A stretch of DNA of 24,043 nucleotides, taken from positions 1-24,043 of the IMG/VR virus record IMGVR_UViG_3300045973_000546. One strand, 5' to 3'. The notes beneath the pieces are model-generated. The model did not search any database. It had not been told where the DNA came from and saw only the letters and a program-made list of their open reading frames with translations. Shown here one piece after another: positions 5,603-22,015 of the stretch. The position numbers were made by a program, and so were the translations under genes. Numbering within the stretch: the stretch's first letter is position 1; each line of letters begins with the position of its first letter. The DNA is from a virus.

Positions 5603-6046
5603 ATGGCAATGTCCGTTGCCATGAAGAGGATTATCACTGACCAGGATGAGCGCATTGGCGCATGGGTGGCGGCCAGCATTGGCCGGGCTGCGCCATGGGG
5701 GCCATTTCACGCGCTCGGAATTGAGCAGGATGGAATCCTTATTGCCGGAGTTGTCTTCGATGGCTGGGTAAAAGAGGCGCGCTGTTCGATGCACTGTGCA
5801 GGCATCGGCAAACGCTGGCTTACCAGAGAATTCCTCTTTGCGTGCTTTGATTACGCATTTCGGCAGTTGAATTGCAAGGTGATCATTAATCCGGTGGATG
5901 CGGACAATGAAGCATCCATCAAATTCACTTCGCACATTGGTTTTGCAGAGGTAGCAAGGATTCCGGAAGGCTCCGGAGATTGCGACCTAATTATTTTTGC
6001 CATGCCGCGCAGGACGTGTCGCTGGTTGAGCGTTAGACGGGGTTAA
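5603..6046 (+). CDS. GNAT-family N-acetyltransferase-like protein
   Basis: A 147-residue protein resembling phage-borne GNAT acetyltransferases, which move an acetyl group from acetyl-CoA to an amine. Supporting features are a strand pair around GILIAGVVFDGW, a helix with GKRWLTREFLFACFDYAF, and the typical late block CKVIINPVDADNEASIKFTS followed by HIGF. The usual R/Q-x-x-G-x-G/A acetyl-CoA loop is not clear; the GIGKRWL segment may serve. The start is uncertain: ATGs at 5603, 5609 and 5621 are all in frame and none has a strong Shine-Dalgarno sequence. It sits inside the virion operon, so the target could be a virion or host protein, which is unknown. Confidence 0.7.
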   Translation: MAMSVAMKRIITDQDERIGAWVAASIGRAAPWGPFHALGIEQDGILIAGVVFDGWVKEARCSMHCAGIGKRWLTREFLFACFDYAFRQLNCKVIINPVDADNEASIKFTSHIGFAEVARIPEGSGDCDLIIFAMPRRTCRWLSVRRG

Positions 6047-6048
6047 GC

Positions 6049-6963
6049 ATGGCTTACATCAGTAGACGGCAACTAGAATTCCTGGGCGAGCCCATTGGCA
6101 ACATGTCCGGTGTTGGCGTGGACGGCCGCGCCATTTATCACGGTGGCGGAAAGGGCGACTCGCCACCAGCCCCCGATTACACGCCGATGGCGAATGCTTC
6201 TGAAGAATCGGCGCGCATCGGCGCAGAACTTGGCCGAGAGCAACTGGCTGAGAATAAGCGGCAGTTTGAGGTAAATCAAACGACGCTGAAGCCGGTTATC
6301 GATCAATCGATCGAGACGCAGCGTATTTCCAACGAGCAAGGCGTCAAGAATTATGAGACGTTCCAGGCCGAAGGTCGCCCCATCCAGCAGCGCCTTGCAA
6401 GTATTGCTCTGGGAGGCGACTACACCGACGCACAAAAAGCAAAGCAGGAAGAAGCGGCCGGCACGGCAATTTCCGATGCGCGCGCCGGAACAAGCCAGCA
6501 AATGAACCAGCTGATCCGCCAGGGATTGCGCATGGGATGGAGCCCGGCGAAGTTGGCTTCAATGGGCGGCCAGGCGGCCACAATGGGCGCACAGAGCCAG
6601 GTTTCTGCGGCAAATTTGGCTCGAACCGGCGTGCAGGGTAAGCAGCTGGCCCAGATGGGCGATGCGTACAACACCTATTCCGGCCTCGGATCTTCTGCAC
6701 CGACGTTCTACAACTCGGGCACAGGCGCGGCGCAGGCGGCCAGCGGTACGCAACTTGGCGTATCTGGCCAGTACATGGGCGGAATGGCGCAGGGCAACGG
6801 AACGATCATGCAAGGGCAGCAGGCGCGCATCAGTGGCCTCGGCTCAATCCTGAGCAGTCAGACCGGCATATACGATTCGCAGATGGCGGCGAACTCATCT
6901 TCGGCCTCCGGGACAATGGGACTGATTGGTGCCGGCATCGGTGCAGCAGCGACGATCTACTAA
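6049..6963 (+). CDS. Internal virion / DNA-ejection protein (gp14-slot)
   Basis: A 304-residue protein rich in Ala, Gly, Gln and Ser. Residues about 55-110 form a helical, charged region (SARIGAELGREQLAENKRQF), followed by many Met/Gln-Gly segments and a C-terminal small-residue hydrophobic segment near residues 288-304 (GTMGLIGAGIGAAATIY). This is the usual makeup of podoviral proteins packed inside the head and ejected through the tail to form a conduit. The position, first of three such genes after the nozzle, matches T7 gene 14. The correspondence is positional and compositional, not proven homology. The stop overlaps the next ATG by one base. Confidence 0.7.
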   Translation: MAYISRRQLEFLGEPIGNMSGVGVDGRAIYHGGGKGDSPPAPDYTPMANASEESARIGAELGREQLAENKRQFEVNQTTLKPVIDQSIETQRISNEQGVKNYETFQAEGRPIQQRLASIALGGDYTDAQKAKQEEAAGTAISDARAGTSQQMNQLIRQGLRMGWSPAKLASMGGQAATMGAQSQVSAANLARTGVQGKQLAQMGDAYNTYSGLGSSAPTFYNSGTGAAQAASGTQLGVSGQYMGGMAQGNGTIMQGQQARISGLGSILSSQTGIYDSQMAANSSSASGTMGLIGAGIGAAATIY

Positions 6964-7685
6964 TGAGCGACTACGACGATATCTTTTCCCGCCATGATCG
7001 GGTGGCAATTCAAGTTTCTGGCGGCAAGGATTCGCTTGCTGCTTTGTACTTGCTGCGTCCATATTGGGATCGGCTGGTCGTCTATTGGCTTAATCCTGGA
7101 AATCCGTTTCCAGAGACGTATGAGGTAATTGACCGTGTTGCTTCGATGGTTCCGCATTTCAAAGAGGTACGAGGTCGCCAGCGCGAAATAATCAAGGAAG
7201 GCGGCTGGCCTTCTGATGTTGTACCAATTCGTTGGACAAGTTTCGGCCAGTTTGGCCTTGGCGAAAAGGCGTTCAAAGTGCAGGGGCGTTTTGATTGCTG
7301 CTGGCGCTCTCTGATGCTCCCCATGCACGAAGCCATGCTTGAAGATGGAATTACCTGCGTAATTCGAGGAAAGCGCAGCGACGAGGTTGATAAATCGCCA
7401 TCCAGATCAGGCGACGTGATCGACGGCATCGAATTCGTCTATCCGCTGTGGGATTGGTCGGCCGGTGATGTGCATACGTTCCTGAGAGATAACGGCGTAC
7501 AGCTTCCGGACTATTACCTCTACGTCGACAGTTCGCTCGACTGCATGGATTGCACCGCATGGTGGGAAGACGGTATCGGAAAATTCACCAAAGCAAGGTA
7601 TCCAGCGCTTCATGCGGAGTACGTGAGGCGGATTGGTTTAATCAAGTCGGCAATCGCCGACGAATTGACACGAATCGAGGACTGA
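6963..7685 (+). CDS. APS/PAPS-reductase-like PP-loop protein
   Basis: A 240-residue member of the adenine-nucleotide alpha-hydrolase/PAPS reductase superfamily. The PP-loop SGGKDS is at residues 19-24, where such enzymes bind the adenylate pyrophosphate or phosphate. Cysteines C112-C113 and C194-x-x-C197 reproduce the CC-(about 80)-CxxC spacing used to hold a 4Fe-4S cluster in APS reductases. A basic GKRSDE segment follows at about 136-141. Known relatives reduce APS/PAPS to sulphite or, as in DndC, act in DNA sulphur modification. The gene overlaps the gp14-slot gene by one base and precedes the gp15-slot gene by one base, so it is expressed with virion proteins. Whether it acts in sulphur metabolism or nucleic-acid modification is unknown. 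Confidence 0.85.
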   Translation: MSDYDDIFSRHDRVAIQVSGGKDSLAALYLLRPYWDRLVVYWLNPGNPFPETYEVIDRVASMVPHFKEVRGRQREIIKEGGWPSDVVPIRWTSFGQFGLGEKAFKVQGRFDCCWRSLMLPMHEAMLEDGITCVIRGKRSDEVDKSPSRSGDVIDGIEFVYPLWDWSAGDVHTFLRDNGVQLPDYYLYVDSSLDCMDCTAWWEDGIGKFTKARYPALHAEYVRRIGLIKSAIADELTRIED

Positions 7686-7686
7686 A

Positions 7687-9354
7687 ATGGGTCGTAGAAA
7701 ATACGCAGATCAAGGGCTGGCTGTCATACAGGGGTTCAACATGGGCCGCCAGGTTGTGAAGGATTTCCAGGATGACCAGGTGCGCGCCGAGGTGGGCGAT
7801 GCAGCTCAAGCCAACCGGGCCACAGAATCAATGTCGGGCAATGATGCAGCCGCCGTTTTCAATAAGCAGTATGTGCCGCAGGATGGCGGGCCGGCGACGG
7901 CGGCCGAATACCTGCAGCAGAACCCAGGCGTAGCCGCTGCGCTGTCACCGGATCGTCAGGCCGGCTATGTCGTGGGAAAGGATAGCTTTGATAACCGTGC
8001 TTCTGCGAAAGCTAAGGCCAATGGCCTGAATGTCCAGGGAATGGCCGATGTTATGGCGCTCAACGGCAAGCCCGAGGAAGCAATGCGGCTTCAGCAGCAG
8101 GCGCGCCAGGGTGATTTGACTGAGTTGCAGATCAAGGGCGCCGAGCGTGGCGAACGCGAGGCAGCAGTTGAGGAAGAGTACAAGCTGAGCCGCCAGAAGC
8201 TGGCCGGCGAGTTCAGTGGCAACCGTATACGCGGCGATAACGACGCACTGATGTCGCAGTATGAGCAAGAGAAATCAGCCTATCAGGAAGCGCTCAAGGC
8301 AAACCCGGATAACCCGGCAGCGGCTGGCATTGCGCCGACCAAGCCGAAGCTGCGCACTATGACCGGGCTGGATATGCTGCATGACGCCAACCTGATCATG
8401 CAACACGACATGAAGTTTGGGAAAGTGGATCCAGCCAAGGCGCTGCAGTATCAGCAGATGGTTGGCCAGGTGAAGAAGGAAGTCAGCGTCGACGCATTCA
8501 AGCTGCTACACTCCGGTGACGTCAAGGGGGCGGTCAAGGCGTTCGAAGACCAGGGGGATCTGCGTCTTCCGGAAGGCGCCACCGTCGAGGCGCGCAAAGG
8601 TTTCTACGAAGTCGGTGGACAGAAGGTGCCGACCAATGAGCTCGTTGTGCATCTTGCGAATGGCCACGTCCAGGTAATCAACGGCCTGCAGGGCATGGAT
8701 GCGCTCGATGCGGCCGATAAGATCATCGGTAATAACTTCAAGGGTGCGGAGCTCGGTATCAGCAAGCAGCGTGTTGGACTGGAAGGCGCTCGGGTTGGTC
8801 TTGCGAACAAGGCGGAGGCGCGGGCGCAGGCGGAATTCGATGCAGGGGCGCCAGACCGAAGCCTTAAATCGACTGTCTCGACGCTTCAGCTTGGACTGGC
8901 GAACGCGTCGACCGATGAAGAGCGCACGCAAATATCGGCCAAGCTCAAGGCAATTCAATCCGGCATGGGAGCAGACAAGAATTCTCCTTCTGAGGTCAAG
9001 CTTGCCAAGTCTCTCGTTGATTCCGGTTTGGCGAAGGACATGAAGGAAGGTCTGCAGATTGCCATGTCGAAGAGCGGGCAGTCGCCGACAGAGCGCCATC
9101 TTGATCTTGTGAAGCAGTTCTCGAAGGATGATCCAAATCCGAATCGCGCGATCGAGAAGGCTAACCAGATCATGGTAGCCTCTGGTTTCGTCAAGAGCGG
9201 ATCGTCATGGAGTCAATCAGATGGTGCATCTGCGGCAACGCCAGCGCCCGCTCAGCTTCCCGCTCCAGAGCAGCGGAAGATCGGACAGTCCTATGACACG
9301 CCTAAAGGGAAATTGATCTGGCGCGGTACCGGCTGGGAGCAGCCAACCAAGTAG
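7687..9354 (+). CDS. Internal virion protein (gp15-slot)
   Basis: A 555-residue, mostly helical, hydrophilic protein rich in Ala, Gln, Lys and Glu. No transmembrane segment or enzymatic motif is seen. Residues about 130-200 and 360-450 look coiled-coil or alpha-solenoid-like. The C-terminal 30 residues carry the pattern GQSYDTPKGKLIWRGTGW, a short tail often found at the end of phage internal proteins of this kind (recollection). It lies between the gp14-slot protein and the giant gene, the place of gene 15 in T7-like virions, and is probably packaged and ejected. The start one base after the previous stop is supported by an AGGA a few bases upstream. Confidence 0.7.
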   Translation: MGRRKYADQGLAVIQGFNMGRQVVKDFQDDQVRAEVGDAAQANRATESMSGNDAAAVFNKQYVPQDGGPATAAEYLQQNPGVAAALSPDRQAGYVVGKDSFDNRASAKAKANGLNVQGMADVMALNGKPEEAMRLQQQARQGDLTELQIKGAERGEREAAVEEEYKLSRQKLAGEFSGNRIRGDNDALMSQYEQEKSAYQEALKANPDNPAAAGIAPTKPKLRTMTGLDMLHDANLIMQHDMKFGKVDPAKALQYQQMVGQVKKEVSVDAFKLLHSGDVKGAVKAFEDQGDLRLPEGATVEARKGFYEVGGQKVPTNELVVHLANGHVQVINGLQGMDALDAADKIIGNNFKGAELGISKQRVGLEGARVGLANKAEARAQAEFDAGAPDRSLKSTVSTLQLGLANASTDEERTQISAKLKAIQSGMGADKNSPSEVKLAKSLVDSGLAKDMKEGLQIAMSKSGQSPTERHLDLVKQFSKDDPNPNRAIEKANQIMVASGFVKSGSSWSQSDGASAATPAPAQLPAPEQRKIGQSYDTPKGKLIWRGTGWEQPTK

Positions 9355-9402
9355 GCGTAGCAAGCATGGCAGCATCATCCTATCTACTTGATGGGCGGTG
9401 CC

Positions 9403-12400
9403 ATGGAAAAGTTACTGAGCGACGAAGAAGTATTCGGAAAGCAATCAAATAGCGTAAGACTGCTTTCAGATGATGAGGTTTTCGGTACAGCGAGCAAGCG
9501 CCGGCCAATCGATCAGATCATCAAGGACGAGAGCGATCCAGTAAGAGCCGCCAATGCGGCTAGCGACGCCGGGTACGATTACGCCGAGATAGACAAGGCA
9601 ATCACCGAACGCGAAGAGCGGGCAAAGGCGATGTCAGAGAAGCGCACGGTCGGAAATGTGGCGACGGATCTTGTTGCTCAGCCGATTATCGGTGCTCAGA
9701 AAATGGCAGCGGGTGGAATTCGCTTCGTTGGAGACGTCATTGCCCCTGAGCCAGACAAGCCAATCGACAATTTCCGCGAACAGGGTGGCGTAGCAAATGT
9801 TCGTCAAATCGTCGGGCGCGGGTTAAGCCAGTTCGGCGGGGAGATATACCAAGAGGGCGGAGACATTGAAAAGCAGGTCAATGTTGAAATGCCGAACGCA
9901 ACCCTTCAGGGGTTGTACGGCGGCGCCAAGTCCCTCGCGTTGCAGGCACCAATGCTTGGCGCTCCCGGTGTTGCTGCGCCGCTTGCCTTCATGGGCGGGC
10001 AAGTCGGACTCGATAAATACGCCGAAGCACGTGAAGCGAAATACACCCCAGGTATGTCGGCCGCAATTGGCGCTGGGCATGGCGGTATCGAAGTCGCTAC
10101 CGAATTGCTCCCGACAAAGTTCTTCAAGGAATCCATTGGAAAGGCTGGACTGAAGGAATTCGTTGTTGGCCTATTGGCGCGAGAAGTGCCGGGTGAGCAG
10201 GCGGCCACGCTGGGCCAGGATGCAATCGATCAGGCTGTCGGCCTATCGGGCAAGACAAAGGGCGATTGGGAACAATACTGGCAAGACCGGCCTGCCGCGG
10301 CTTATCAAACCCTTCTCGCCACACTGTCGCAATCCGGACTGCAAACGGCTGGCCATGCCGCATACAAGAAGCTATCAACGATCGGCGAGCCGAAGACCAA
10401 TCAGGATCTGATTGCGCAAGAGCTCTCGGAAAATGTTGCCAGCACCAATTTCTCAGCCGAAGGAATCGCCCAGTCGGCAGTAAATCAACTGAGCCCTGAC
10501 CGTGCGCAGATGCATGCGGCACCGGCCGCGAGTGCTGTTGATCCGACTGCCATGGCGACCACCGGGGATTCTGTAAATCCAGCTGCAAACGCATCTACGC
10601 CGATACCCGAGAATCCACAATCTTCCAGCGACCCGCTTCAGCGACTCGCAGAAATCGAGATTGAATCTTCGCGTCGCGAGCTCACGCCGGCCGAGGTTTC
10701 AGAAGCCAATTCACTTATTGAACAACTTCAAGGAGAAGAGAATGCCGTTACCGAGCTACATGACAATTCCTCAGAAACTCGGGGCGCGACCGAGCCCTCT
10801 GCTGATGTCGCTACTGGCGGGCAAGGGGTGCAAGGGGAAGAAGCCGCCGCCAAAACGGTAAAGCCAGGGGGCGAATGGGCAGAGTTTCCACCCGAGTCCG
10901 GAACACTCGGAATTCCTCGTTCCGAGATGCCGCAGATCAAGGCAGAGCACCGCGGCGCCCTGATCAATTTCATGAACGCTCGAGGCATCACCAGCCAGCA
11001 GGAAGAGGTTCCAGCTGACTCACTAAAGCCAACGCAGGCAGAGTATTCGCCGAAGAAAGTCGAGAAAGCCAAGGGGTTCGAAGGTGGTGATCGGTCGATT
11101 CTTGTTTCGTCGGATAACCATGTTCTCGACGGGCATCACCAGTTGCTCGCGAAGCAAGAAGAAGGGAAGCCGGTAAAAATCATTCGCCTGAATGCACCGA
11201 TCAGCGACCTTGTTCCGCTGGCGCATGAATTCCCAAGCGCCACGACCGCGCCCGGAGCGCCTGGCACACCGCTAAATCAGGGGTTTGTTCCGCTCAATGT
11301 GCCGAGCCTGTCGCCGGCCGCACAGGCGCGGGTATCGGGAATCGATAGCAGGCTTGGTGAAATCCAGGCAGACATGCCGAATCGCACGGCGCCAGTGCGG
11401 GCATCTTTGCAGCGCGAAGCTGCTCAGCTGCTGAGTGAAAAAGAAGTGATTCACGCTCAAGCGGCAGAGGCGGCGCAAGCCAAGCCAAAACAGCCCGCCG
11501 CGCGCCAACCTTCGCCAATCGAGCGCCGCGATGATCTGGTCGGCGCAATCATGCGAGTGACTGGCGGCAATGGTATTGCGGCAAGCCATGCTCAAACCAT
11601 CGTTGGCGATAAGGCGAACGCAGCAACCAAGGTTCGCGGGCTCTTTACCAACAAGGGTACAGCAGACCTTGGCGACACGGCCATGCTGTTGCGTGAACAG
11701 GAAGGCTACGACGTCAAAGACGGCGAGCATCTTTCGGAACTGATCCGCGAACAGGCGGCCGGAAATCCCGTGTACTCGATGGAGCGCATCGAGCGCGATG
11801 CCGCAGCGAATGCAGAAAAGCAGCACAAAGATTCGATCAACCGCCGCGCCGAAGAACTTGGCTTGAAGAAGAGCGGTGGCAAGCGTACTCTTGATGCTGT
11901 CATTGCTGATATTGCCCGCGAAGAAAAGCGCCTATCCGATCTTGAGTCAGATGCCGAGCGCGAGGCAATTCAGGCTGCCGACATCGCAGATAGTATTTAT
12001 CAAGAAGAATCTGATCTAACTGAAGCCGATTTGATGCAATGGCTTGGTGATCGTGTCGAATATTCACAGGACGAAATCAATGAAGCCAATACCCGATCAT
12101 CTAAAATCAAAAGTAGAAGATCTGAAGCTCGATCTATTGAAATATCCGATGAGCAAGCGCAAGGAGATCATCGAGAAGGGGATGGCGATCGCTCGTCAGC
12201 GACAATTGGTAGCCAATCTAAAGAAGGAGCGCGAGGAAATCTCGAAGACCAGTCCGCCACAGGGCAGCGGAGCAAAGATGATCAAGGCAATCAAGGAAGC
12301 AACAAAGGCGATCAGCAAGACCGTGTAACCGAGGACGGTCCAAAGCCGCAGTATCAGGCGGGCGATCGCATTGTTCCGGGAAAAGATGTATTCGATGGCG

Positions 12401-15400
12401 ACATCGTAAAGACCAAGAATGGCAAGCTGTGGATGGCGCGCGTCAAGCGCGGGGACACAATCCCAGTTGTTCCGTTTGAAAACGGGAAGCCAGTTGTATC
12501 GGCAGATACACGCAAGACCTTCAGCCTGCTATCGCAGGAAGTCACGCACACCGGTGAAAACTATTACGGGCATGGCGGCCAGCCGAAGCCAGGGCTAACA
12601 CTTACCGGCCAAACAGCCGCAGAAATCCGGCAACAGGAACAGGATCGAGTCGCTGCTGCCGCAGAGGCTGCGCGTCAGGAAACGCAAGACGCTGCCGACA
12701 AGAAGGCGGCTGAAAAGAAATCACTCGAAGATGCCATCAAGGCCCGAGCTGCGAACCCTGACAACTTCCAGTTTGGCGAAGATGCGAAAGCTGCAGCGAA
12801 GCCGATGGGTAATCTGTTTGATCAGCCTAGCGCCAATGCGCAAGTAGCTAAATCAAACGCCAAAGAACCCCCACCAAAATACGGAATTTACCAACTACCT
12901 GATGGATCGTTCGCAAAGTTCGATAGGGTTTGGTATCGCGGAGAAAAAACAGAGCGCGCTGCAATGCTCTCTGAAATGGTTATCCCAGGAAACGCTGCGC
13001 CAAAAGATAGGCTAGATAGCCAATCATGGGTATTTACCAAGGGGTTTTCCCGCAATGAATACGATGGTAGTCCATTGCGTCTTACCAAGAATGGCGAGGA
13101 TGCTGCGGTCGACGCCAGCAATGAGCGAGAAACAGCGGATCGACCAAGCGCCGAACCTGTAACGGAGCCGGAGAAATCCGAGTCCAGTACCCCATCAGAA
13201 ATGGACTCGCTCAAAGCAGAGATGGGCGATGCCATTGGAGAACTAGCTTCTATCCTTGGTGTGAAGATGAATCTCACACCGGAAGAGGAAAGCAAGATCA
13301 TTCCGGTGATGTCGAAGATTTTCCGCATCGCCGCAAAGATGGGTTACATCAAGTTTGCTGATGCAGCGAAGTATGTCATGCAGCAGATTCGCACTATGGC
13401 CGGGACAATCGTTGCCGACAAGATCAGCATCGAGAATCTTCAGGCCGGTTACATAAATGTTTCCAAGGAGATCGGCGGCGACAAACGCGAAGCCATGTCC
13501 TATGATTCAATTGAAGACTTGGAGAAATCAGAAAATGTCACTGACGAGCGTAGCAGCACCGATCTGGAACGAGATAGCCAAGACGCAGAAGCTGCGGACG
13601 CCGTGGGCGAAGATGGCGTTCGCGCTGGACGGGATGGCGATGGCGGAACTGGAAGACAAGGAGTGGAAGGAGCTGAAGCTGAAAGTGGACAGCGAGGTAG
13701 CGAGCGCAGTAGTGAAGATGAAGCCGCTACTGCTGGAGAACATAGCGATCAGCAAATATACACAGGCGCACCCGAACTATCGCCAGGCTCTGCCGGAAGT
13801 CGTGTCGATATCGGAAGCAGTAATGATAGCCTCGATGGATTACCCATTGAATCAGACGCAGCAGCAGCAGTTGAAAAAACTGCTACAAGCAGAGTTCAAA
13901 AAGAACGGGATCAACTAGCCCAGCAAAAGTCCGACAACAAGCCGCAAGGCGAAGGACTAGCCGCTGTTCGTGCTGCGCTTCCTATCCTCACCGAAGGGCA
14001 GCAAGACGACGTATTCAAGACTGAAACGCGCTTCGCTGTTCCTGACGGTTACGGCATGCTTTTCACCAACGGCACAGGAACTGGTAAAACATTCTCTGGT
14101 CTTGGCGTCATTAAGCGCATGGGCAATCAGGGAAAGAACAATATCCTGATCGTCGCGCCTAGCGATGAAATCATCAATGCTTGGCAGAAGGCCGGCAAGT
14201 TGCTTGGCCTTGAGCTTACCCGCCTTGCTGATACCAACGACGCCGGAACGGGTATCACCATCACGACCTACGCCAACATGGGCGCCAACAATGCGCTGGC
14301 AACACGCGACTGGGATATGGTCGTCCATGACGAAGCGCACTACCTGGCGATGGATAAGGACGGCACCAGCACCAATGCACTGAAGAACCTGCGGGCGATC
14401 ACGTTGCATCCGGATGGCGTGTTTCAGCGTCACAACATGATCAATGCGGCCGACATCCAGCGTCTGGCCGAGCTGGACGCGAGCGCCAAATCAGACCGTA
14501 TGTCTGACTTTGATGTTCAATGGCAGCGTGCCGAGGTTACGCAGAAAGAAGCCGACAAGCTGCGCAACGAACTGAAGGTCAAGCAAGACGCCATCAAGCA
14601 AGACGTAGCAGATCGCCAGGGCGCCAACCGCACCCGCGCGTTGTTCCTATCTGCAACACCGTTCGCCTACGAGAAAACAATCGACTGGGCCAATGGCTAC
14701 ATCTTCGACTACAACGAGGGCCAGGCCAGCGAAGATCGCGAGTTCAGGGGTTACAACTCCGGCAGCAACAAAGACCGTTTCTTCATGCAGCACTTCGGCT
14801 ACCGCATGCGGACGGGCAAGCTGACGCAGCCAGATGCTAAGGTCGATAGCGGTTTGATGCAGCGCCAGTTCAACGCCTGGCTGAAGAAGAAAGGATCGTT
14901 GTCTGGCCGCATGCTCGATGTCGCAGCCGACTATGACCGCAAGTTCATCCTGGTTGATTCGGCTATTGGACAGCGTATTGACGAGGCGCTGCAGTGGTTT
15001 GAGGTGAAACGCAAGGCGCAGCACTCCGGCACAGGTGAGATGGGCGAAAGAGCCGGCGCCATCATGGCGAAGGCTGACCCATACGTTGATGCGCTGAACG
15101 CTGTGCGCGACCAGATCGCAGAGAAGTTCGATTACCTGTCGCGCCGCTACCTGCTCGAATCGATCAAGGCCCGCGAAGTGGTTCCGCATATCCGCGAACA
15201 CATGGCGATAGGGCGCAAGATTGTTGTGTTCCACGACTACAAGAAGGGCGGCGGATTCAACCCGTTCATTCTTGACGAGCGTTCAGTGAAATCTCAAGAG
15301 GCGATAGACGCCACAGTGTCGGCCGAGCAGTGGAATCGTGTTGTCCGCGAGTTCAATGCTGAGTTCAAAGACATCATCAATTCAGACCTGTTCAGACAGT

Positions 15401-18400
15401 CGTCTCCGATTGATATGTTCAAGCAGGAATTCCCAGGCGTGCTGCTGTTCAATGGCGACGTGCCGGCCAAGACGCGCTGCGACAATGTTGCCAAGTTCCA
15501 GGACGACGCCAGCGGTCCGCAGATCATCCTTGTTCAATCTGCTGCAGGCAAGGAAGGCATCAGCCTGCATGACACCACAGGAAAGCACCAGCGCGTTCTA
15601 TTCAACCTTGGACAGCCAACTCAGCCGACTACCGCTATCCAGCAGGAAGGCCGTATCTACCGAACCGGCCAGGTGACTGACGCAATGTTCCGCTACTTGA
15701 ACACGGGCACCAACTGGGAGAAATGGGCTTTCGCAACAACCATCGCCCAGCGTGCCAGCACAGCAGAAAACCTAGGCATGGGCGAAATGGCTCGCGCCTT
15801 GAAAGATGCGTTCGTCTCAGGATTTGAAGAATCTGGCGACTATCGCGCCGGGATGGCAGGCGAGGGCAAGGGTGGCAAGGAACGCGACAAGGCCGCGAAC
15901 GACGCGCTGACCGAATACGACCGCGCTCGCGCTTTCTACTTCGGCACGCAGAAAAAGAACAGCAAGACCAAGGCGCAGGAAGGTGCTGACTACTTTGCAA
16001 CGCCTGAACCTGTCGGATTGAAGATGGTTGAATGGGCTGACGTTCGCCCAGGTGAGCGCGTGCTTGAGCCGTCAGCCGGCCATGGCGCTATTGCTCGCTG
16101 GTTCCCTGACACAGCAGACAAGACGGCAATCGAGCCAAGCATGGCGCTACGCTCGCGCCTGGCGATGGTGTTCAACGGAACGATGATCGACACCGACTTC
16201 GAGTCGATGAATGTCGTCAATAAGTTCGACGCCATCGTGATGAATCCACCGTTCGGCTCTGGCGGGAAGATGGCCGTTGAACACTTGGCAAAGGCCGCTA
16301 CGCACTTGCGTGATGGTGGCCGCATTGTGGCCCTGATTCCTACGGGACCGGCTGCTGACAAGAAGTTCGACAAGTGGATGTATGGCGAGGAAGAGCGAGC
16401 CATCAAGCCACTTTTCGACCATCCTGTTCTTGGTCCTATCTACCGCGGCGATACCGTTAATACGCGCGCAAGCTGGATGAAGGAAGGCGTCATTGTTCGC
16501 CGTGACAAAGACGGTCATTTGTGGATGAAGCGCGAAGGCGTGCCGGGTGAATCAATGGTTGCCACGGAGTCATTCACCAGCGTCAAGCCGACAGGCAAGC
16601 GCACCGAGATGGTCAAGACGGCACCCAGCCTGAACATGGTTGCCGACATCAAGATGCCGTCAGTCACGTTCGAGCGAGCCGGCACGCAGGTAATGACGCG
16701 CATTGTTGTGATCGAGAAACAGACTGCTGCGGACAAGGTGATTGATACCCGTGGCGTCTATAACAAAGACTTCACCGGTGAAGACGACATCAATGCGCTG
16801 TTCAACCGCATGGAAAACATGGCGTTGCCTGGCCGCTTGAAAGAGCGCACTGAGGAAGAAGTGCCGGCGACGAAAACGCAGAAGGTGGAAAATCCAGCAC
16901 CGTCAGCAGTTGGCGATGTGGTCACAATCGAAGGGGCAGAGTACCCGATTGAAATCTACGTCACGAACGACGGAAAGGAAAAGCGCGGCATCTGGATGGC
17001 AGAGAGGCTGGCCAAGGCGCTTAATCCGCGTGCGTTTAAGACAGCGAAGAACAACGGTACGCCGAATCAAGGCAAGTTCTTTGTCGATGAATACTGGCTG
17101 AAGAAGAACGGCCCGGCAGTGCTATCAGCTGCGCCGTTTTCGCGCGGGGAAGACTTCACACCAATCAGCCTTGACGTTGCTGCCGGCGTTGTCCAGCGCG
17201 TCCGCGCCATCGCGGAGAAAGAGTGGAAAGTCGATATTCGCCTCGTCCCGACCTTTGATTCGCTTCCGGACGATACGAAACAGGCAATAGCCAAGTATGG
17301 TGAGGACACCAAGGCCAAGGGCGTACTGCACAAAGGGGTTATTTATCTGGTTGCTGATGAACATGAGTCAGAAGCCGATTTGGAAACCACTATTCTGCAT
17401 GAAGCCAAGGGGCATGTGGGGATTCGTCGATTGTATGGAGCAGAGGCAGAGAAAAAACTGAATGCCTTGTTCGATGCTATCGGCGGCGCGCCGGGCCTGG
17501 CCAACATTGCCAAGCGCCGCGGATTCACTGAAGAAATGCAGGGCTATGCGCTGTCGCTCAAGGATTCGGATTTCTCGAATGGTGAGCGGACACGGATCAT
17601 CATGGAGGAATTGCTTTCCCACATCGCCCAAGAGCCAAAATTCACGGACAAGGTGAAGGCCGTTGTTGGTGCGGTTCGCGCATGGCTTCGAGATAACGGT
17701 TTCATGAGCCTGTCAAGCTACGGAGAAACCGACCTTCTTAAAATCCTCAGTGATGCCAGCAAATCGCTAAGCGTTATCCGATCCGAAGACGGCCTAGCCG
17801 TCCTGATGGCGTCGTCCCGCATTTCGGCAACCGCCAACAATGCTTATCAGCAAGGGAAGCAGAAGGTTGCGGATCTAACGAGTCCGGAATCAATCAACAC
17901 CCTGGTCTATAACTTCCAGAACAAGTACGTCGACCTGAAGAACATGCAGGACCGAATCAAGGCGATAGGCGGCACGCTGACCGATCTGAATGATGCCTAT
18001 CTCGGTGAAGAGATGTATCACGGCAAGGTGATGAAGAAGACCGCGGATTTCCTCGACGAAGAGATTCATCCGTTGCTTCGCCAGCTGTTCAACAATGGAA
18101 TCAAGAAGGAAGATTTCGAGCAGTATTTGCATGCCAGGCATGCGCCGGAGCGTAATGCGGCTATGGCTTTGCGCAATCCGAATCAGGCGATGATTGATGC
18201 CGGCCAGACAAAGGCGGATGCGGATCTGAAATCGTTACATCTGCAGTTGCAAAATGCTCAGGCGCATGGCTTGGCTACCAAGGCGATTGATAATTCTATC
18301 GAGAAAGCTAAGGCAGAGCGTGCGCAATGGCATGGCGCTCAGGCATTCAAAGGCACCGAGGACGAGCGCAACTCGCTTTCCGGTATGAGCGATGCGGCGG

Positions 18401-20619
18401 CAGCGCAGATCATGTCTGCCGTGAGGCCCGGCCACCGTCATGCAATGGATTCTGCCGCAGCTAAGGTAGATGCCATCAATGCCAAGTCGCTTGATCTCCA
18501 ATTGAATTCAGGCTTGATTGACCGGGCAACCTACAACGCGATCAAGAGCGCCTATAAATTCTATGTGCCATTGCATCGTGACGAGGCGCACCCAGATAGT
18601 GCCAGCCATCCGATAGGGCAGGGCTTCAGCGTTAAGGGCAGCGGCATCAAACGGGCGACCGGTTCAAACGAGACGGTGACAAACATTCTCGGCCACGTTG
18701 CCATGAATCGCGAGGCGCAGATCACGCGCTCTGAAAAGAATAGCGTCTCGAAGCGGCTCTATTTGCTGGCTTCGCAGAATCCGGACAAAGACTTTTGGAG
18801 CGTTGGCCGGCCGCCGACGATCAAGACCATTGACCCGCGCACTGGCTTTGTCCGTTCGCAGGTTGATCCAAACTATGCCAGCAAACCGAATGTGCTGGTC
18901 GTTCGCATTGCCGGCAAGGATGCGGCCATTGTATTCAATGAACACAACCAAGAGGCCGTGCGCCTGGCTGGTGCATTGAAAAACCTTGATGGGCAGGATC
19001 TTGATGTTGTCGAGCGCACGATAGGTAAGGCAACACGGTGGTTTGCTGCGGTCAACACGCAGTACAACCCTATTTTTGGCATCGTCAATTTGATGCGCGA
19101 CTCCCAAGAGGGAATCATCAACCTGACAACGACGGAAATCGGAAACAAGAAATGGGATGTTGCGAAAACCATTCCGTCTGCGATGCGCGCGATTTACCAA
19201 ATCGAGCGGGGTGGTATCGCTAGCAATCAGCGGATGGGTGATCTGTGGAAGGAGTTCCAAAGCGTAGGCGGGGAAACTGGCTATCGTGATCTATACGCCT
19301 CACCAGAGGATCGCGTGAAGGCGCTGGAGAAGGAGCTGAAATCGTTTGAGCGAGGAAGTATCAGCAAGCGGGCGCATGCCGTTGCTGAATGGCTTTCCGA
19401 CTACAACACGACGATGGAGAACGCGGTTCGTCTTTCGGCCTACAAGGTGTCCATTGAAAACGGATTGAGCAAAGAGCGCGCAGCCAGCCTGGCAAAGAAC
19501 CTCACAGTGAATTTCAATCGCAAGGGAGCAAAAGCGGCAAAGCTCGGCGCGCTCTACGCATTCTTCAATGCGTCCGCCCAGGGCACGGCCCGGGTAGCAC
19601 AAACTATGCGCGGCCCAGCCGGAACGAAAATACTGATTGGCGGCGTCGCGATTGGCATTCTTCAGCAGGCGCTCGGCATGATGATTATGGGCGGAAGCGG
19701 AGATGACGACAGCGAATGGGACAAGATTCCTGACTTCATCAAGGAAAATAATCTCATCTTCCCGATTGGCCACGATAAGTTCGTTTCTATTCCTCTTCCG
19801 CTTGGCCTCAAAGTATTACCGAACATTGGCCGCCTGTTTGCAGAGTGGGCAACCGGTGGTGAAGATCGGCCTACCGGGAAGCAGATTGGCAAATTACTGA
19901 GTATTGCCATCGGATCATTTAATCCGCTGGGCGGCAGTGACGTGGTGGACATGGTTTCTCCGACTGTCGCTGACCCGGTAATTTCCTTGCTTCGAAATAA
20001 GGACTGGACGGGCAAGCCGATATACCGCGAGGACATGGCAAGCCTTGATCCAACACCGGGATTCACGCGTACTAAGGATTCGGCAACGCCATGGGCAAAG
20101 GGATCGAGCTACATGATCAACCTGGCAAGCGGGGGGAACGATTATCGTCCTGGACTATGGAGCCCAACTCCGGATCAAATTGACTACGTTATTGGCCAAT
20201 TAACCGGTGGCGTCGGTCGCGAGCTTGGGAAGGCAGTGCAAACCGTATCGTTTCCTTTCACCGGCGATGAACTGCCAGCGCACAAAATTCCGCTTGCTGG
20301 CCGTCTATATGGGACCACTAATGGACCAAGCGGCCAGTCCGAGAAGTTCTACGAGAACATCAAGGAGCTGAACGGTATCCAGCGCGAATTGAAGGGGCGA
20401 ATCAAGGACGACAAGGATGTTACTGAATTTCTTGAAAAAGAGAAGCGCGCCGATCTGATTGGCCTGGGAAATTCAGCAGAGTCCCAAGTGCGGCATCTTC
20501 GCCAGCAGCGCCGGATACTTTCCAAGGAAGGCGACACCGCAGGAGCAAAGGAGATTGACGCATCAATCGCTGCAGTAATGAAGGGGCTCAATATGGAAAT
20601 GCGTCCAGCGAATCGATAG
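9403..20619 (+). CDS. Giant polyvalent ejected protein: ParB-like, helicase, methyltransferase, zincin
   Basis: About 3738 residues counted from ATG 9403. ATG 9391 and TTG 9388 are also in frame, and none has a clear Shine-Dalgarno sequence. In order: twin LLSDEEVFG/LLSDDEVFG motifs (4-28); Gly/Ala-rich region (about 65-330); ParB-like domain with VLDGHHQ (574-580); helical polyvalent domain (706-790); another near 1267-1365; SF2 helicase with GTGTGKT (1557-1563), DEAH (1643-1646), SAT (1750-1752) and QQEGRIYRTGQ (2080-2090); methyltransferase with LEPSAGHG (2221-2228) and NPPF (2281-2284), typical of N6-adenine enzymes; zincin-like HEAKGH (2666-2671); C-terminal polyvalent domain with a hydrophobic segment (3407-3428) and a PLxRFG-like PLAGRLYG (3630-3637). 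This resembles P1 DarB and other polyvalent proteins thought to be ejected to shield entering DNA from restriction. Three linkers carry nested ORFs in another frame. Confidence 0.9.
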   Translation: MEKLLSDEEVFGKQSNSVRLLSDDEVFGTASKRRPIDQIIKDESDPVRAANAASDAGYDYAEIDKAITEREERAKAMSEKRTVGNVATDLVAQPIIGAQKMAAGGIRFVGDVIAPEPDKPIDNFREQGGVANVRQIVGRGLSQFGGEIYQEGGDIEKQVNVEMPNATLQGLYGGAKSLALQAPMLGAPGVAAPLAFMGGQVGLDKYAEAREAKYTPGMSAAIGAGHGGIEVATELLPTKFFKESIGKAGLKEFVVGLLAREVPGEQAATLGQDAIDQAVGLSGKTKGDWEQYWQDRPAAAYQTLLATLSQSGLQTAGHAAYKKLSTIGEPKTNQDLIAQELSENVASTNFSAEGIAQSAVNQLSPDRAQMHAAPAASAVDPTAMATTGDSVNPAANASTPIPENPQSSSDPLQRLAEIEIESSRRELTPAEVSEANSLIEQLQGEENAVTELHDNSSETRGATEPSADVATGGQGVQGEEAAAKTVKPGGEWAEFPPESGTLGIPRSEMPQIKAEHRGALINFMNARGITSQQEEVPADSLKPTQAEYSPKKVEKAKGFEGGDRSILVSSDNHVLDGHHQLLAKQEEGKPVKIIRLNAPISDLVPLAHEFPSATTAPGAPGTPLNQGFVPLNVPSLSPAAQARVSGIDSRLGEIQADMPNRTAPVRASLQREAAQLLSEKEVIHAQAAEAAQAKPKQPAARQPSPIERRDDLVGAIMRVTGGNGIAASHAQTIVGDKANAATKVRGLFTNKGTADLGDTAMLLREQEGYDVKDGEHLSELIREQAAGNPVYSMERIERDAAANAEKQHKDSINRRAEELGLKKSGGKRTLDAVIADIAREEKRLSDLESDAEREAIQAADIADSIYQEESDLTEADLMQWLGDRVEYSQDEINEANTRSSKIKSRRSEARSIEISDEQAQGDHREGDGDRSSATIGSQSKEGARGNLEDQSATGQRSKDDQGNQGSNKGDQQDRVTEDGPKPQYQAGDRIVPGKDVFDGDIVKTKNGKLWMARVKRGDTIPVVPFENGKPVVSADTRKTFSLLSQEVTHTGENYYGHGGQPKPGLTLTGQTAAEIRQQEQDRVAAAAEAARQETQDAADKKAAEKKSLEDAIKARAANPDNFQFGEDAKAAAKPMGNLFDQPSANAQVAKSNAKEPPPKYGIYQLPDGSFAKFDRVWYRGEKTERAAMLSEMVIPGNAAPKDRLDSQSWVFTKGFSRNEYDGSPLRLTKNGEDAAVDASNERETADRPSAEPVTEPEKSESSTPSEMDSLKAEMGDAIGELASILGVKMNLTPEEESKIIPVMSKIFRIAAKMGYIKFADAAKYVMQQIRTMAGTIVADKISIENLQAGYINVSKEIGGDKREAMSYDSIEDLEKSENVTDERSSTDLERDSQDAEAADAVGEDGVRAGRDGDGGTGRQGVEGAEAESGQRGSERSSEDEAATAGEHSDQQIYTGAPELSPGSAGSRVDIGSSNDSLDGLPIESDAAAAVEKTATSRVQKERDQLAQQKSDNKPQGEGLAAVRAALPILTEGQQDDVFKTETRFAVPDGYGMLFTNGTGTGKTFSGLGVIKRMGNQGKNNILIVAPSDEIINAWQKAGKLLGLELTRLADTNDAGTGITITTYANMGANNALATRDWDMVVHDEAHYLAMDKDGTSTNALKNLRAITLHPDGVFQRHNMINAADIQRLAELDASAKSDRMSDFDVQWQRAEVTQKEADKLRNELKVKQDAIKQDVADRQGANRTRALFLSATPFAYEKTIDWANGYIFDYNEGQASEDREFRGYNSGSNKDRFFMQHFGYRMRTGKLTQPDAKVDSGLMQRQFNAWLKKKGSLSGRMLDVAADYDRKFILVDSAIGQRIDEALQWFEVKRKAQHSGTGEMGERAGAIMAKADPYVDALNAVRDQIAEKFDYLSRRYLLESIKAREVVPHIREHMAIGRKIVVFHDYKKGGGFNPFILDERSVKSQEAIDATVSAEQWNRVVREFNAEFKDIINSDLFRQSSPIDMFKQEFPGVLLFNGDVPAKTRCDNVAKFQDDASGPQIILVQSAAGKEGISLHDTTGKHQRVLFNLGQPTQPTTAIQQEGRIYRTGQVTDAMFRYLNTGTNWEKWAFATTIAQRASTAENLGMGEMARALKDAFVSGFEESGDYRAGMAGEGKGGKERDKAANDALTEYDRARAFYFGTQKKNSKTKAQEGADYFATPEPVGLKMVEWADVRPGERVLEPSAGHGAIARWFPDTADKTAIEPSMALRSRLAMVFNGTMIDTDFESMNVVNKFDAIVMNPPFGSGGKMAVEHLAKAATHLRDGGRIVALIPTGPAADKKFDKWMYGEEERAIKPLFDHPVLGPIYRGDTVNTRASWMKEGVIVRRDKDGHLWMKREGVPGESMVATESFTSVKPTGKRTEMVKTAPSLNMVADIKMPSVTFERAGTQVMTRIVVIEKQTAADKVIDTRGVYNKDFTGEDDINALFNRMENMALPGRLKERTEEEVPATKTQKVENPAPSAVGDVVTIEGAEYPIEIYVTNDGKEKRGIWMAERLAKALNPRAFKTAKNNGTPNQGKFFVDEYWLKKNGPAVLSAAPFSRGEDFTPISLDVAAGVVQRVRAIAEKEWKVDIRLVPTFDSLPDDTKQAIAKYGEDTKAKGVLHKGVIYLVADEHESEADLETTILHEAKGHVGIRRLYGAEAEKKLNALFDAIGGAPGLANIAKRRGFTEEMQGYALSLKDSDFSNGERTRIIMEELLSHIAQEPKFTDKVKAVVGAVRAWLRDNGFMSLSSYGETDLLKILSDASKSLSVIRSEDGLAVLMASSRISATANNAYQQGKQKVADLTSPESINTLVYNFQNKYVDLKNMQDRIKAIGGTLTDLNDAYLGEEMYHGKVMKKTADFLDEEIHPLLRQLFNNGIKKEDFEQYLHARHAPERNAAMALRNPNQAMIDAGQTKADADLKSLHLQLQNAQAHGLATKAIDNSIEKAKAERAQWHGAQAFKGTEDERNSLSGMSDAAAAQIMSAVRPGHRHAMDSAAAKVDAINAKSLDLQLNSGLIDRATYNAIKSAYKFYVPLHRDEAHPDSASHPIGQGFSVKGSGIKRATGSNETVTNILGHVAMNREAQITRSEKNSVSKRLYLLASQNPDKDFWSVGRPPTIKTIDPRTGFVRSQVDPNYASKPNVLVVRIAGKDAAIVFNEHNQEAVRLAGALKNLDGQDLDVVERTIGKATRWFAAVNTQYNPIFGIVNLMRDSQEGIINLTTTEIGNKKWDVAKTIPSAMRAIYQIERGGIASNQRMGDLWKEFQSVGGETGYRDLYASPEDRVKALEKELKSFERGSISKRAHAVAEWLSDYNTTMENAVRLSAYKVSIENGLSKERAASLAKNLTVNFNRKGAKAAKLGALYAFFNASAQGTARVAQTMRGPAGTKILIGGVAIGILQQALGMMIMGGSGDDDSEWDKIPDFIKENNLIFPIGHDKFVSIPLPLGLKVLPNIGRLFAEWATGGEDRPTGKQIGKLLSIAIGSFNPLGGSDVVDMVSPTVADPVISLLRNKDWTGKPIYREDMASLDPTPGFTRTKDSATPWAKGSSYMINLASGGNDYRPGLWSPTPDQIDYVIGQLTGGVGRELGKAVQTVSFPFTGDELPAHKIPLAGRLYGTTNGPSGQSEKFYENIKELNGIQRELKGRIKDDKDVTEFLEKEKRADLIGLGNSAESQVRHLRQQRRILSKEGDTAGAKEIDASIAAVMKGLNMEMRPANR
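10742..10861 (+). CDS. Nested small ORF 1 inside the giant gene (+1 frame)
   Basis: A 39-residue candidate starting MPLPSYMTIPQKLGARPS and ending in a basic KGKKPPPKR tail. It has an ideal AAGGAG at 10730-10735 with a six-base spacer to ATG 10742. In the giant frame the same DNA encodes a low-complexity linker (about residues 447-486) just before the ParB-like domain. By hand count, about 29 of 39 third positions are G/C in the nested frame against about 21 of 40 in the giant frame. It is short, so chance is a real alternative. No family is recognised. Confidence 0.4.
   Translation: MPLPSYMTIPQKLGARPSPLLMSLLAGKGCKGKKPPPKR
12080..12328 (+). CDS. Nested small ORF 2 inside the giant gene (+1 frame)
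   Basis: An 82-residue candidate starting MKPIPDHLKSKVEDLKLDLL, strongly helical and charged, with a Lys-rich C-terminus (MIKAIKEATKAISKTV). AGGA at 12068-12071 lies eight bases before ATG 12080; an upstream GTG at 12044 is also in frame. The giant frame across this DNA (about residues 893-975) is an Asp/Gly/Gln/Ser-rich linker with no fold-like pattern. Hand count of G/C at third positions gives about 51 of 82 in the nested frame but about 28 of 83 in the giant frame, against about 51 of 80 in a sample of the helicase domain. That contrast favours the nested frame as the better-adapted coding frame. The function is unknown, and the alternative is a formerly independent gene now read only as a linker. 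Confidence 0.5.
   Translation: MKPIPDHLKSKVEDLKLDLLKYPMSKRKEIIEKGMAIARQRQLVANLKKEREEISKTSPPQGSGAKMIKAIKEATKAISKTV
13535..13918 (+). CDS. Nested small ORF 3 inside the giant gene (+1 frame)
   Basis: A 127-residue candidate starting MSLTSVAAPIWNEIAKTQKL. It reads like a folded helical protein: ELEDKEWKELKLKVDSEVAS, then MKPLLLENIAISKY, then ALPEVVSISEAVMIASMDYP, with a Gln/Lys-rich end. GGAG at 13521-13524 lies ten bases before ATG 13535. The giant frame here (about residues 1378-1505) is a Gly/Asp/Glu/Ser-rich low-complexity linker directly before the helicase. By hand count, about 94 of 127 third positions are G/C in the nested frame against about 43 of 128 in the giant frame. No family was recognised. 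It may be a true overlapping gene, or a captured gene whose frame is no longer translated separately. Confidence 0.55.
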   Translation: MSLTSVAAPIWNEIAKTQKLRTPWAKMAFALDGMAMAELEDKEWKELKLKVDSEVASAVVKMKPLLLENIAISKYTQAHPNYRQALPEVVSISEAVMIASMDYPLNQTQQQQLKKLLQAEFKKNGIN

Positions 20620-20773: not shown

Positions 20774-22015
20774 CTAATCCGTAGTTACTGCTTCGCCATC
20801 ACCTTCCGCTGCCGCCTTGGCGACCAGCGCGTCAATCCAGTCCGCCCAAGCCTGCATCATCTCCCGGCGCTCTGGTATGTATTCTGCATGGTTATAGGCC
20901 GCCTTAACTTGGTTTCGCTCAGCATGGGCCAATTGCTTTTCAATGATGTCGCTTCGCCAGCCCAGTTCATGCAACTGGGTAGAGGCGGTCGTCCGGAAGC
21001 CGTGCCCGCTGAACTGACCTAGATAACCCATGCGCTCAAGAACGCGATTTATAGTGGTGCTGGTCATACACGTTCCTGAAGTCCGCAGGTTCGGGAACAG
21101 GAACTTGCGGTTGCCGGAAATCATGTGCAACTCGCGCAGCAGCGCAACAGCCTGCCGGGACAGCGGGACAATATGGACCTCGCCCGGCAGCATGTGTTTT
21201 GCCATCTTCATTCTGATCGCCGGGATGCGCCACTCAGCCGCATCCAGATCAAACTCGACCCACTCGGCGAGTCGTAGCTCTTTCGTTCGAATGAACGTCA
21301 GAAGCATCAATCGGACAGCAATTTTCGTCCCCAAATATCCCCCATAAGCATCCAGCTTTATCAGGAACTTCGGTATCTCGTCTTGCGACAGCGGCGGGTT
21401 ATGCCGTACCGGCTTTCGCTTCAGCGCGCCGGCCAGCGACGTAGCCGGATCGAATTCGGCTTTCTGGTTCGGGATCGCCCAGCGGAAAATCTGACTCGAC
21501 CATTGCCGGATCAGGACCGCGATTGTCCCGGCCCCTCGCTTCTCGACCTTGCGGATGATCTCCAACAGGTGCGCCGCCTTGACGGTTCGGATTGGGAAAG
21601 CCCCGATGGTCGGGAAAACGTCCTTGGTCAAATTGTCATCGACCTGCTTCGCGTAGGTTGCAGACCAATGCGCCTTGTTGTCGACGATCCACTCGCGGGC
21701 GACTGACTCGAAAGTGTTGGTGTTCTCATCGATCACGCCCAGGCGCTCGGCCTTCTTCGAACTGGTTGGGTTCAGCCCCTGCTTGACCTGATCCCGCGCC
21801 CACTCGCGTGCCTTGCGAGCATCGGACAGCGAGACGGCCGGATATTCACCGATGGTGTAAATGCCGTCCTTGCCGTCTGGCTTCCAGTAGCGGTACCGCC
21901 AGAACTTTGCCCCGGACGGCCGGACCTCAAGAAAAAGCCCCTGGCCATCCTGCAGCTTGTAGGGTTTCTCTGTGGGCTTGGAATTACGGAGCTTTGTGTC
22001 TGTGAGGGATGCCAT
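20774..22015 (-). CDS. int: Prophage tyrosine integrase (P4-type)
   Basis: A 413-residue tyrosine recombinase of the P4-like type with an N-terminal DUF4102-style arm-binding domain (LTDTKLRNSKPTEKPYKLQD, then GQGLFLEVRPSGAKFWRYRY). A core-binding domain spans about 100-190 and the catalytic domain about 205-390. Catalytic residues are visible: R243 (in FIRTKELRLAEW), H338-x-x-R341 (HGFR), H364 (QLAHAERN) and Y374 (AAYNHAEY). The enzyme cuts and rejoins attP and attB, leaving the phage integrated. It is convergent with the late operon, with no clear terminator in the roughly 30-base gap. No Shine-Dalgarno sequence precedes the ATG. Instead a perfect inverted repeat abuts it, suggesting repression or att-related binding at its own start. 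Length and motifs are complete, so it should be active. Confidence 0.95.
   Translation of the reverse strand: MASLTDTKLRNSKPTEKPYKLQDGQGLFLEVRPSGAKFWRYRYWKPDGKDGIYTIGEYPAVSLSDARKAREWARDQVKQGLNPTSSKKAERLGVIDENTNTFESVAREWIVDNKAHWSATYAKQVDDNLTKDVFPTIGAFPIRTVKAAHLLEIIRKVEKRGAGTIAVLIRQWSSQIFRWAIPNQKAEFDPATSLAGALKRKPVRHNPPLSQDEIPKFLIKLDAYGGYLGTKIAVRLMLLTFIRTKELRLAEWVEFDLDAAEWRIPAIRMKMAKHMLPGEVHIVPLSRQAVALLRELHMISGNRKFLFPNLRTSGTCMTSTTINRVLERMGYLGQFSGHGFRTTASTQLHELGWRSDIIEKQLAHAERNQVKAAYNHAEYIPERREMMQAWADWIDALVAKAAAEGDGEAVTTD

Follow-up and report, generated by a model that had tools for sequence, protein, structure and literature searches.

The closest described relatives of the locus analyzed here are the Bcep22-like temperate phages, among them BcepIL02, JC1 and CSP3; Bcep22 itself is reportedly the subject of a 2011 study by Gill et al., which the JC1 and CSP3 papers cite. 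These phages end their virion operon with a giant gene. In JC1, the product of this gene, gp69, yielded 51 unique peptides in mass spectrometry of CsCl-purified virions, and gp64 and gp68, which occupy the positions of P0003 and P0005 in our sequence, are likewise reported from virions (PMC9144972). The CSP3 giant (orf43) is described as containing a transglycosylase, a helicase and a methylase (PMC10269572). For T7, which places its large ejection protein gp16 in the same slot, the reported core contains a gp15 octamer and a gp16 tetramer, and an extended N-terminal segment of gp16 touches gp15 and steadies its C-terminal part (PMC8954989, PMC11784390). The ejection proteins of PhiM1 are likewise reported to be octameric and tetrameric (PMC11440229).

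The giant gene and its operon

We analyzed an IMG/VR virus record of 24,043 bases (the window). All window features given below with coordinates lie on the plus strand except the integrase. A frame that opens at a TTG at 9388 runs uninterrupted from an ATG at 9403, taken as residue 1, to the stop at 20619 and encodes a giant polyvalent ejection-type protein of 3738 aa (9403–20619), the last gene of the virion operon. Upstream lie a PHROG 511 "internal virion protein" (3634–5418, E 5e-110), whose counterpart is named head closure in accounts of JC1 and Ralstonia phages; an acyl-CoA N-acyltransferase (PHROG 4470) in the position of T7 gp13 (5603–6046), with a second, weak match to PHROG 308 "internal virion protein" (E 0.0017); a virion structural protein (PHROG 8003) in the gp14 position (6049–6963); a PAPS-reductase-family protein (6963–7685); and a tail-bearing protein of 555 aa, P0005, in the gp15 position (7687–9354), which is also the position of JC1 gp68 and BcepIL02 gp69.

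This order is that of Lessievirus BcepIL02 gp63–gp70 without gp64 and gp68: internal virion protein, acyltransferase, structural protein, PAPS reductase (in the same place as in the window), structural protein and giant. The synteny bears out the first-pass annotation, made from the sequence of the window, which had placed a protein of about 3700 residues in the gp16 slot of a podovirus virion operon; the single open frame agrees with that size. The same annotation had the giant follow two internal-virion-type genes. It does follow virion genes, but the actual series is GNAT, structural protein, PAPS reductase and structural protein. In its main lines the central claim of that annotation is correct, and for relatives it was known before. 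We rejected the giant in the gp16 slot as a novelty, since virion-packaged polyvalent giants in this slot have been published for Bcep22-like phages (JC1 gp69, CSP3). By the precedent of JC1 gp69, the window giant is probably packaged in virions.

Pfam and PHROG searches assigned no family to the 555-aa upstream protein, and it had no match among named phages. Among 17,729 frames, blastp gave three matches, those in the two class C-headed loci L395 and L423 restricted to the tail and that in L122 covering residues 369–476. In L133, L141 and L143, the PAPS-reductase gene is part of a longer frame with about 240–420 additional N-terminal residues, perhaps a fusion to the structural protein. Directly 3′ of the giant, on the opposite strand, is a tyrosine integrase (20774–22015, minus strand), followed by a frame that, on reading its translation, resembles a bacterial glycosyltransferase. 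Thus, the window probably contains a prophage end.

Domains of the giant and their relatives

In Pfam searches of the giant, ResIII, Helicase_C and Helicase_C_4 were above the cut-off, LPD38 was strong and the methylase family MTS was barely above the cut-off; four large PHROGs of unknown function span much of the protein. The motifs GTGTGKT, DEAH, SATPF, QEGRIYRTG, EPSAGHG, NPPF and PLAGRLYG are all present. SF2/SNF2-type helicase motifs occupy residues of about 1551–2120 (14053–15762) and are followed by an adenine methylase with EPSAGHG and NPPF (residues about 2196–2327; 15988–16383), the zincin-type motif HEAKGH (residues 2666–2671; 17398–17415), and a conserved C-terminal module that includes LPD38 (residues 2834–3730; 17902–20592). 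PLAGRLYG, which is PLxRFG-like, is at 20290–20313.

Residues 489–615 (10867–11247) share 72% identity with part of F116 p59 and contain a DGHH motif. On this basis, and following Iyer et al. for the name, we take the stretch to be ParB-like. It appears from its sequence to be a recently moved domain. Pfam gave no ParB-like match at E ≤ 1 anywhere in the giant. Within residues 1–1166, the best matches among phage records (421 records overall) fall in this stretch. HEAKGH was placed in a predicted helix following strands in a structure model, and a PDB search found no fold match for the region. We modeled residues 2590–3738 from 71 sequences (mean pLDDT 77.6, pTM 0.65), and Foldseek comparison of this model with the PDB gave no match at E ≤ 0.001. 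Thus, from the domain list of the first-pass annotation, the SF2 helicase and adenine methylase stand with intact motifs, as does the PLxRFG-like motif, but the ParB-like domain lacks a Pfam match and the zincin a fold match. Several unlike biochemical domains are joined in one late-operon polypeptide, as in the polyvalent proteins of Iyer et al. (2017).

Comparison with named phages by blastp revealed that the giant is a mosaic. Its helicase–methylase region is 43–45% identical to those of Parlo, Skulduggery, ZX1 and Ruegeria 45A6, and 60% identical to that of a Rhodocyclaceae contig. That contig, a 60–70% relative (L004), has a 3151-aa frame without a recognizable head. For the C-terminal 900 residues, the closest named relative is the Methanosarcina (archaeal) virus MetMV (39%; L002, 16001–18535), and the C-terminus used as a single-sequence query found no close relatives among viral contigs. 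Of 600 candidate stretches for relatives of the C-terminal module, 408 were relatives, and the contigs with the best 80 of these 408 were used. Across relatives, the module occurs with very different middle regions.

The helicase–methylase dyad was encoded in all 80 loci that we fetched with the dyad alignment. Since the first-pass annotation had named inactive motifs across relatives as evidence that would count against it, we examined conservation: all six dyad motifs are kept in 72 of 80 relatives, although motif I and III peptides were used in the fetch and the counts for these two are biased. In 79 of 79 orderable relatives, the helicase precedes the methylase. P1 DarB resembles the window protein in being a giant head protein with an SF2 helicase and an adenine methylase, and its first 30 residues, which hold packaging information, are reported to suffice to package a reporter (PMC9024508). 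However, DarB has the methylase before the helicase and lies in another gene context, and blastp detected no similarity to the window giant at 1e-3. On the domain order we rejected membership in the DarB family, and the label "DarB-like" is not supported in the sense of descent. Because the opposite order is found in P1 DarB, in BcepIL02 and in the descriptions of Iyer et al., who report that the methylase nearly always comes first (PMC5512222), the window dyad is a second, order-reversed dyad, DarB-like by analogy and in its parts list only.

The "DarB-like" or PLxRFG proteins of Parlovirus, Skulduggeryvirus and Lastavirus ZX1 share the slot and the helicase-then-methylase order with the window giant, but have SLT at the N-terminus and LPD39 in place of LPD38. 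The Bcep22-like giants (BcepIL02 gp70, JC1 gp69, CSP3 orf43) share gene order, slot, size class, LPD38, helicase, methylase and the ParB-like stretch (57%). BcepIL02 differs in its N-terminal SLT transglycosylase and in having the methylase before the helicase, and the CSP3 giant in its described transglycosylase; the window giant, by contrast, has the reversed order, a doubled head and no SLT. An SLT domain is present in the Parlo, Skulduggery, ZX1 and BcepIL02 giants, whereas Pfam found no SLT match in the window giant at E ≤ 1.

By position and PHROG labels, the giant is last in a gp13-gp14-gp15-gp16 series, as T7 gp16 is. Unlike T7 gp16, it lacks a transglycosylase and is three times longer, and we found no sequence or fold similarity between the two; a review describes the gp16 homologues of P22 and Sf6 as also lacking the SLT transglycosylase. 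N4 vRNAP resembles the window giant in its described build (PMC12633501): it is a giant ejected protein whose N-terminal part is of membrane type, and it further contains an enzyme, a domain with a zincin motif and a C-terminal part of about 1100 aa that is helical. Its enzyme is an RNA polymerase instead of a helicase–methylase pair. An N4 vRNAP-like architecture was attractive, yet we set it aside, as there was no sequence or fold match. VIA-align returned common helical matches only (best Z 8.0 over 114 residues), a result that leaves room for kinship. Neither T7 gp15 and gp16 nor N4 vRNAP could be linked by fold or sequence to the giants or their upstream proteins in our searches.

Doubled heads and class-matched tails

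The first 28 residues of the window giant contain two copies of LLSD(E/D)EVFG, namely LLSDEEVFG (residues 4–12; 9412–9438) and LLSDDEVFG (residues 20–28; 9460–9486), with a repeat p ≤ 0.005. We scored internal repeats in the first 80 residues of 61 giants, comprising the 52 that had a start among the best 80 of 408 module relatives and nine others. Repeats at p ≤ 0.005 occurred in 17 of 61 N-terminal windows compared to 9 of 487 internal windows; 36 of the 61 giants had no significant N-terminal repeat (p > 0.05). The repeated motifs differ wholly among lineages (WWESSP, FDPDAYL, DLFEExG, GYRFVGGDP, PWEKY, SFVYDDEQ and others), and some of the repeats detected belong to a small domain rich in strands (for example, RFELPDGRIGRFEVPDG) rather than to short head motifs. 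The heads of L129 and L130 contain repeats of the (L/V)D(V/A)xGLQP type, in about four copies. Transglycosylase-bearing giants have upstream tails and no doubled head.

Just upstream of many giants, the adjoining protein ends in a short distinctive C-terminal tail. In the window, this tail comprises the last 24 residues of the 555-aa protein, IGQSYDTPKGKLIWRGTGWEQPTK (9280–9351), and is assigned to class C. To avoid choosing motifs by position, we scanned five motifs over all viral contigs. GYRFxGGDP gave at least 142 in-frame matches, and among the matches listed 132 were no more than 45 residues away from the stop, most often 18–19. GPWEKY gave at least 121 (110 N-terminal among the matches listed) and AFDPDAY at least 146 (among the matches listed, 123 N-terminal, 3 C-terminal and 20 other). 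Complete scans gave 94 matches for AEYDxLPxG, 78 of them C-terminal, and 36 for the window's own motif, SDEEVFG; nine of these fell inside the N-terminal 40 residues of a frame of at least 200 aa, most of them doubled, and the remaining 27 were elsewhere, largely in unrelated proteins.

We defined four head and tail classes (A–D) and collected adjacent gene pairs by the motif of one side or by the LPD38 module alone. Among the matches listed, 424 adjacent pairs comprised 183 A–A, 60 B–B, 10 C–C and 94 D–D pairs, two mismatches and 75 pairs in which at least one side was unclassed. With duplicates removed, 292 of the 294 listed pairs that were classed on both sides matched, compared to a mean of 118 and a maximum of 143 when heads were shuffled over the 294 pairs. 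Both off-diagonal pairs look like pattern artefacts, although we count them as mismatches: in L251 the next called frame is 71 aa long and extends past the end of the available DNA, and the L595 head, NPWDDDEIVV/NPWDADPIV, has the look of class B.

Matching was also evident when only the side not used for collection was scored. Among the matches listed, a class A tail was followed by a class A head in 120 of 125 cases and a class A head preceded by a class A tail in 101 of 107; the corresponding values were 90 of 98 for class D heads and 57 of 74 for class B tails. All nine class C heads had a class C tail. Two patterns, those of the B head and the D tail, are loose and were adjusted after seeing the data (that for the class D tail was rewritten, as the first version matched nothing); those of A and C are specific. 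In frames of at least 250 aa, the class B head pattern matched 844 of 5145 internal stretches and the class A head pattern 29; the class C tail occurred in 11 C-termini among 5145 such frames, true ones included.

At the level of motifs, 110 of 125 genes that follow a GYRF tail among the matches listed start with PWxKY, 95 of them at least twice, and the other 15 mostly have variants such as PWEEY. All nine SDEEVFG-headed genes are preceded by a protein with a W.G.GW-type tail like the window's YDTPKGKLIWRGTGWEQ; examples are YQTPKGMMIWRGNGW (L423) and YVTASGRKVIWDGKGW (L396, a near-duplicate of L400). Among the 424 pairs listed, no pair of any other class has a W.G.GW tail. With its doubled LSDEEVFG-type head beside a W.G.GW-type tail, the window pair belongs to class C. 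Among the matches listed, heads with exactly two copies, the usual number, made up 140 of 164 in class A, 8 of 9 in class C and 75 of 81 in class D.

Neither side fell into classes A–D in 54 of the 77 payload relatives examined. Thus, either there are more classes than these four or the rule does not hold everywhere. By eye, several of the unclassed relatives have doubled heads of their own (L100, L112, L113 and L123–L125). L123, L124, L125 and L029, with DLF... heads and tails like (E/D)xxAATAKKYxxSxxEVxxxL, are a possible fifth class.

Most class A and class D downstream proteins are of ordinary size: the median length of complete ones is 594 aa in class A and 712.5 aa in class D. The two complete class C downstream proteins have 2530 and 3738 aa. 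In F116, a cultured Pseudomonas aeruginosa phage, the tail is of class A and the head is a doubled KPWEEF; the annotation of F116 p59 (L011, 11471–12370) skips this head, and the record breaks the frame just past it. One class A downstream protein has a relative that carries the annotation DNA injection protein; a class A downstream protein of L285 had no match among named phages. We modeled a class D upstream protein from 22 sequences (mean pLDDT 74.2, pTM 0.40), and Foldseek gave no PDB match at E ≤ 0.001, the T7 gp15 fold included. Its tail was modeled as two helices (mean pLDDT about 60–90); therefore, the tails are not all of one shape. A glutamine-rich family of class A upstream proteins was aligned but left out of folding.

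Proposed docking of heads on tails and its alternatives

The new part is the class-matched doubled head and upstream tail. A literature search, mostly in open-access papers, found no description of such head–tail motifs or of docking. Modular polyketide synthases carry C- and N-terminal docking domains, in which the tail of one protein and the head of the next are class-matched and the genes adjacent. Those domains are unrelated to the pairs described here, which are phage virion proteins with a doubled head.

A model that would accommodate these data takes the giant to be the ejection protein, in the gp16 position, of a temperate phage of the Bcep22 kind. The giant would be loaded into the head together with its upstream partner (7687–9354) because its two N-terminal head motifs would dock on two copies of this partner, at C-terminal tails of the matching class, and on infection both proteins would leave with the DNA. 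The C-terminal module, with the zincin motif, LPD38 and one hydrophobic helix, may serve ejection and placement. The middle payload, the ParB-like domain and the helicase–methylase pair, would act on the entering DNA; most simply, the pair would track along it, methylating it against restriction. We give this whole explanation an even chance. Two head copies are expected to be usual if each gp16-like protein binds two gp15-like partners, as the four and eight subunits of the T7 core would suggest, and the contact of the gp16 N-terminus with gp15 would fit such docking. The code itself, in which tail and head classes are numerous, mutually exclusive, matched and exchanged as one cassette, two heads set a 2:1 stoichiometry and a matching head makes any payload injectable, the helicase–methylase pair being an example, we put forward tentatively, at slightly below an even chance.

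In one set of loci, head and tail were replaced in concert. Bodies of different classes were alike at 1e-6 in 291 upstream and 893 downstream pairs. When L285 (A/A) was compared with L446 and L545 (both D/D), the upstream bodies were identical at 300 of 503 and 221 of 455 positions, with 51 of 98 and 56 of 96 in their last 100 columns, and the 100 columns after the head at 78 and 81 of 100; the tails, however, were identical at only 9 of 34 and 12 of 36, and both head and tail classes differ. Head and tail also changed together in L034/L037, L466/L591 and L534/L593, where the flanks are weakly alike near the junction. Two loci, L025 and L079, look reversed for motif position: there GYRF forms the doubled head, and the upstream tail is PWEKY-like.

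Head and tail might instead each be read by a third virion part, such as a portal, core adaptor or scaffold, whose type varies among phages, much like capsid-targeting sequences. We consider this unlikely. The N-terminal 30 residues of P1 DarB are a sufficient packaging signal (PMC9024508), the GYRF and PWEKY motifs have a WEK core in common, and the two reversed loci also favor this reading; but a third-part reader would permit GYRF–GYRF and PWEKY–PWEKY pairs, and the 424 pairs listed include none.

It is improbable that the giant is only packaged anti-restriction cargo that, like P1 DarB, takes no structural part in the ejection channel, with the gp16 job done by another protein. Its helicase–methylase pair and the precedent of DarB, which protects entering DNA from type I restriction, would suit such a role, but the giant closes a gp13-14-15-16 type operon, no other gp16-like gene lies between it and the integrase, and its C-terminal module recurs with quite different middles.

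Finally, since tail and head adjoin on the DNA in all classes (usually within about 15 bases; 48 in the window), co-inheritance alone would give matching, but we judge it very improbable that the motifs are merely a recombination hinge swapped whole without protein function, as it is the amino-acid sequence that is conserved, the head repeats its motif internally, the tail is kept where upstream bodies have diverged past blastp detection, and the resumption of body homology at both cassette edges in L285 versus L446 and L545, together with the reversed loci, argues that linkage is not the whole account.

A review describes ejection proteins as mosaically conserved, at <10% even where phages share a host. 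For the way in which such dissimilar proteins recognize each other inside the head, a matched head–tail code would provide a testable rule for which proteins assemble, and it would allow copy ratios to be predicted from sequence. It would also identify ejection partners in unannotated phages, as a head predicts a tail and a tail a head, and would explain how defense-countering giants and plain proteins of 500–900 residues can serve the same machine.
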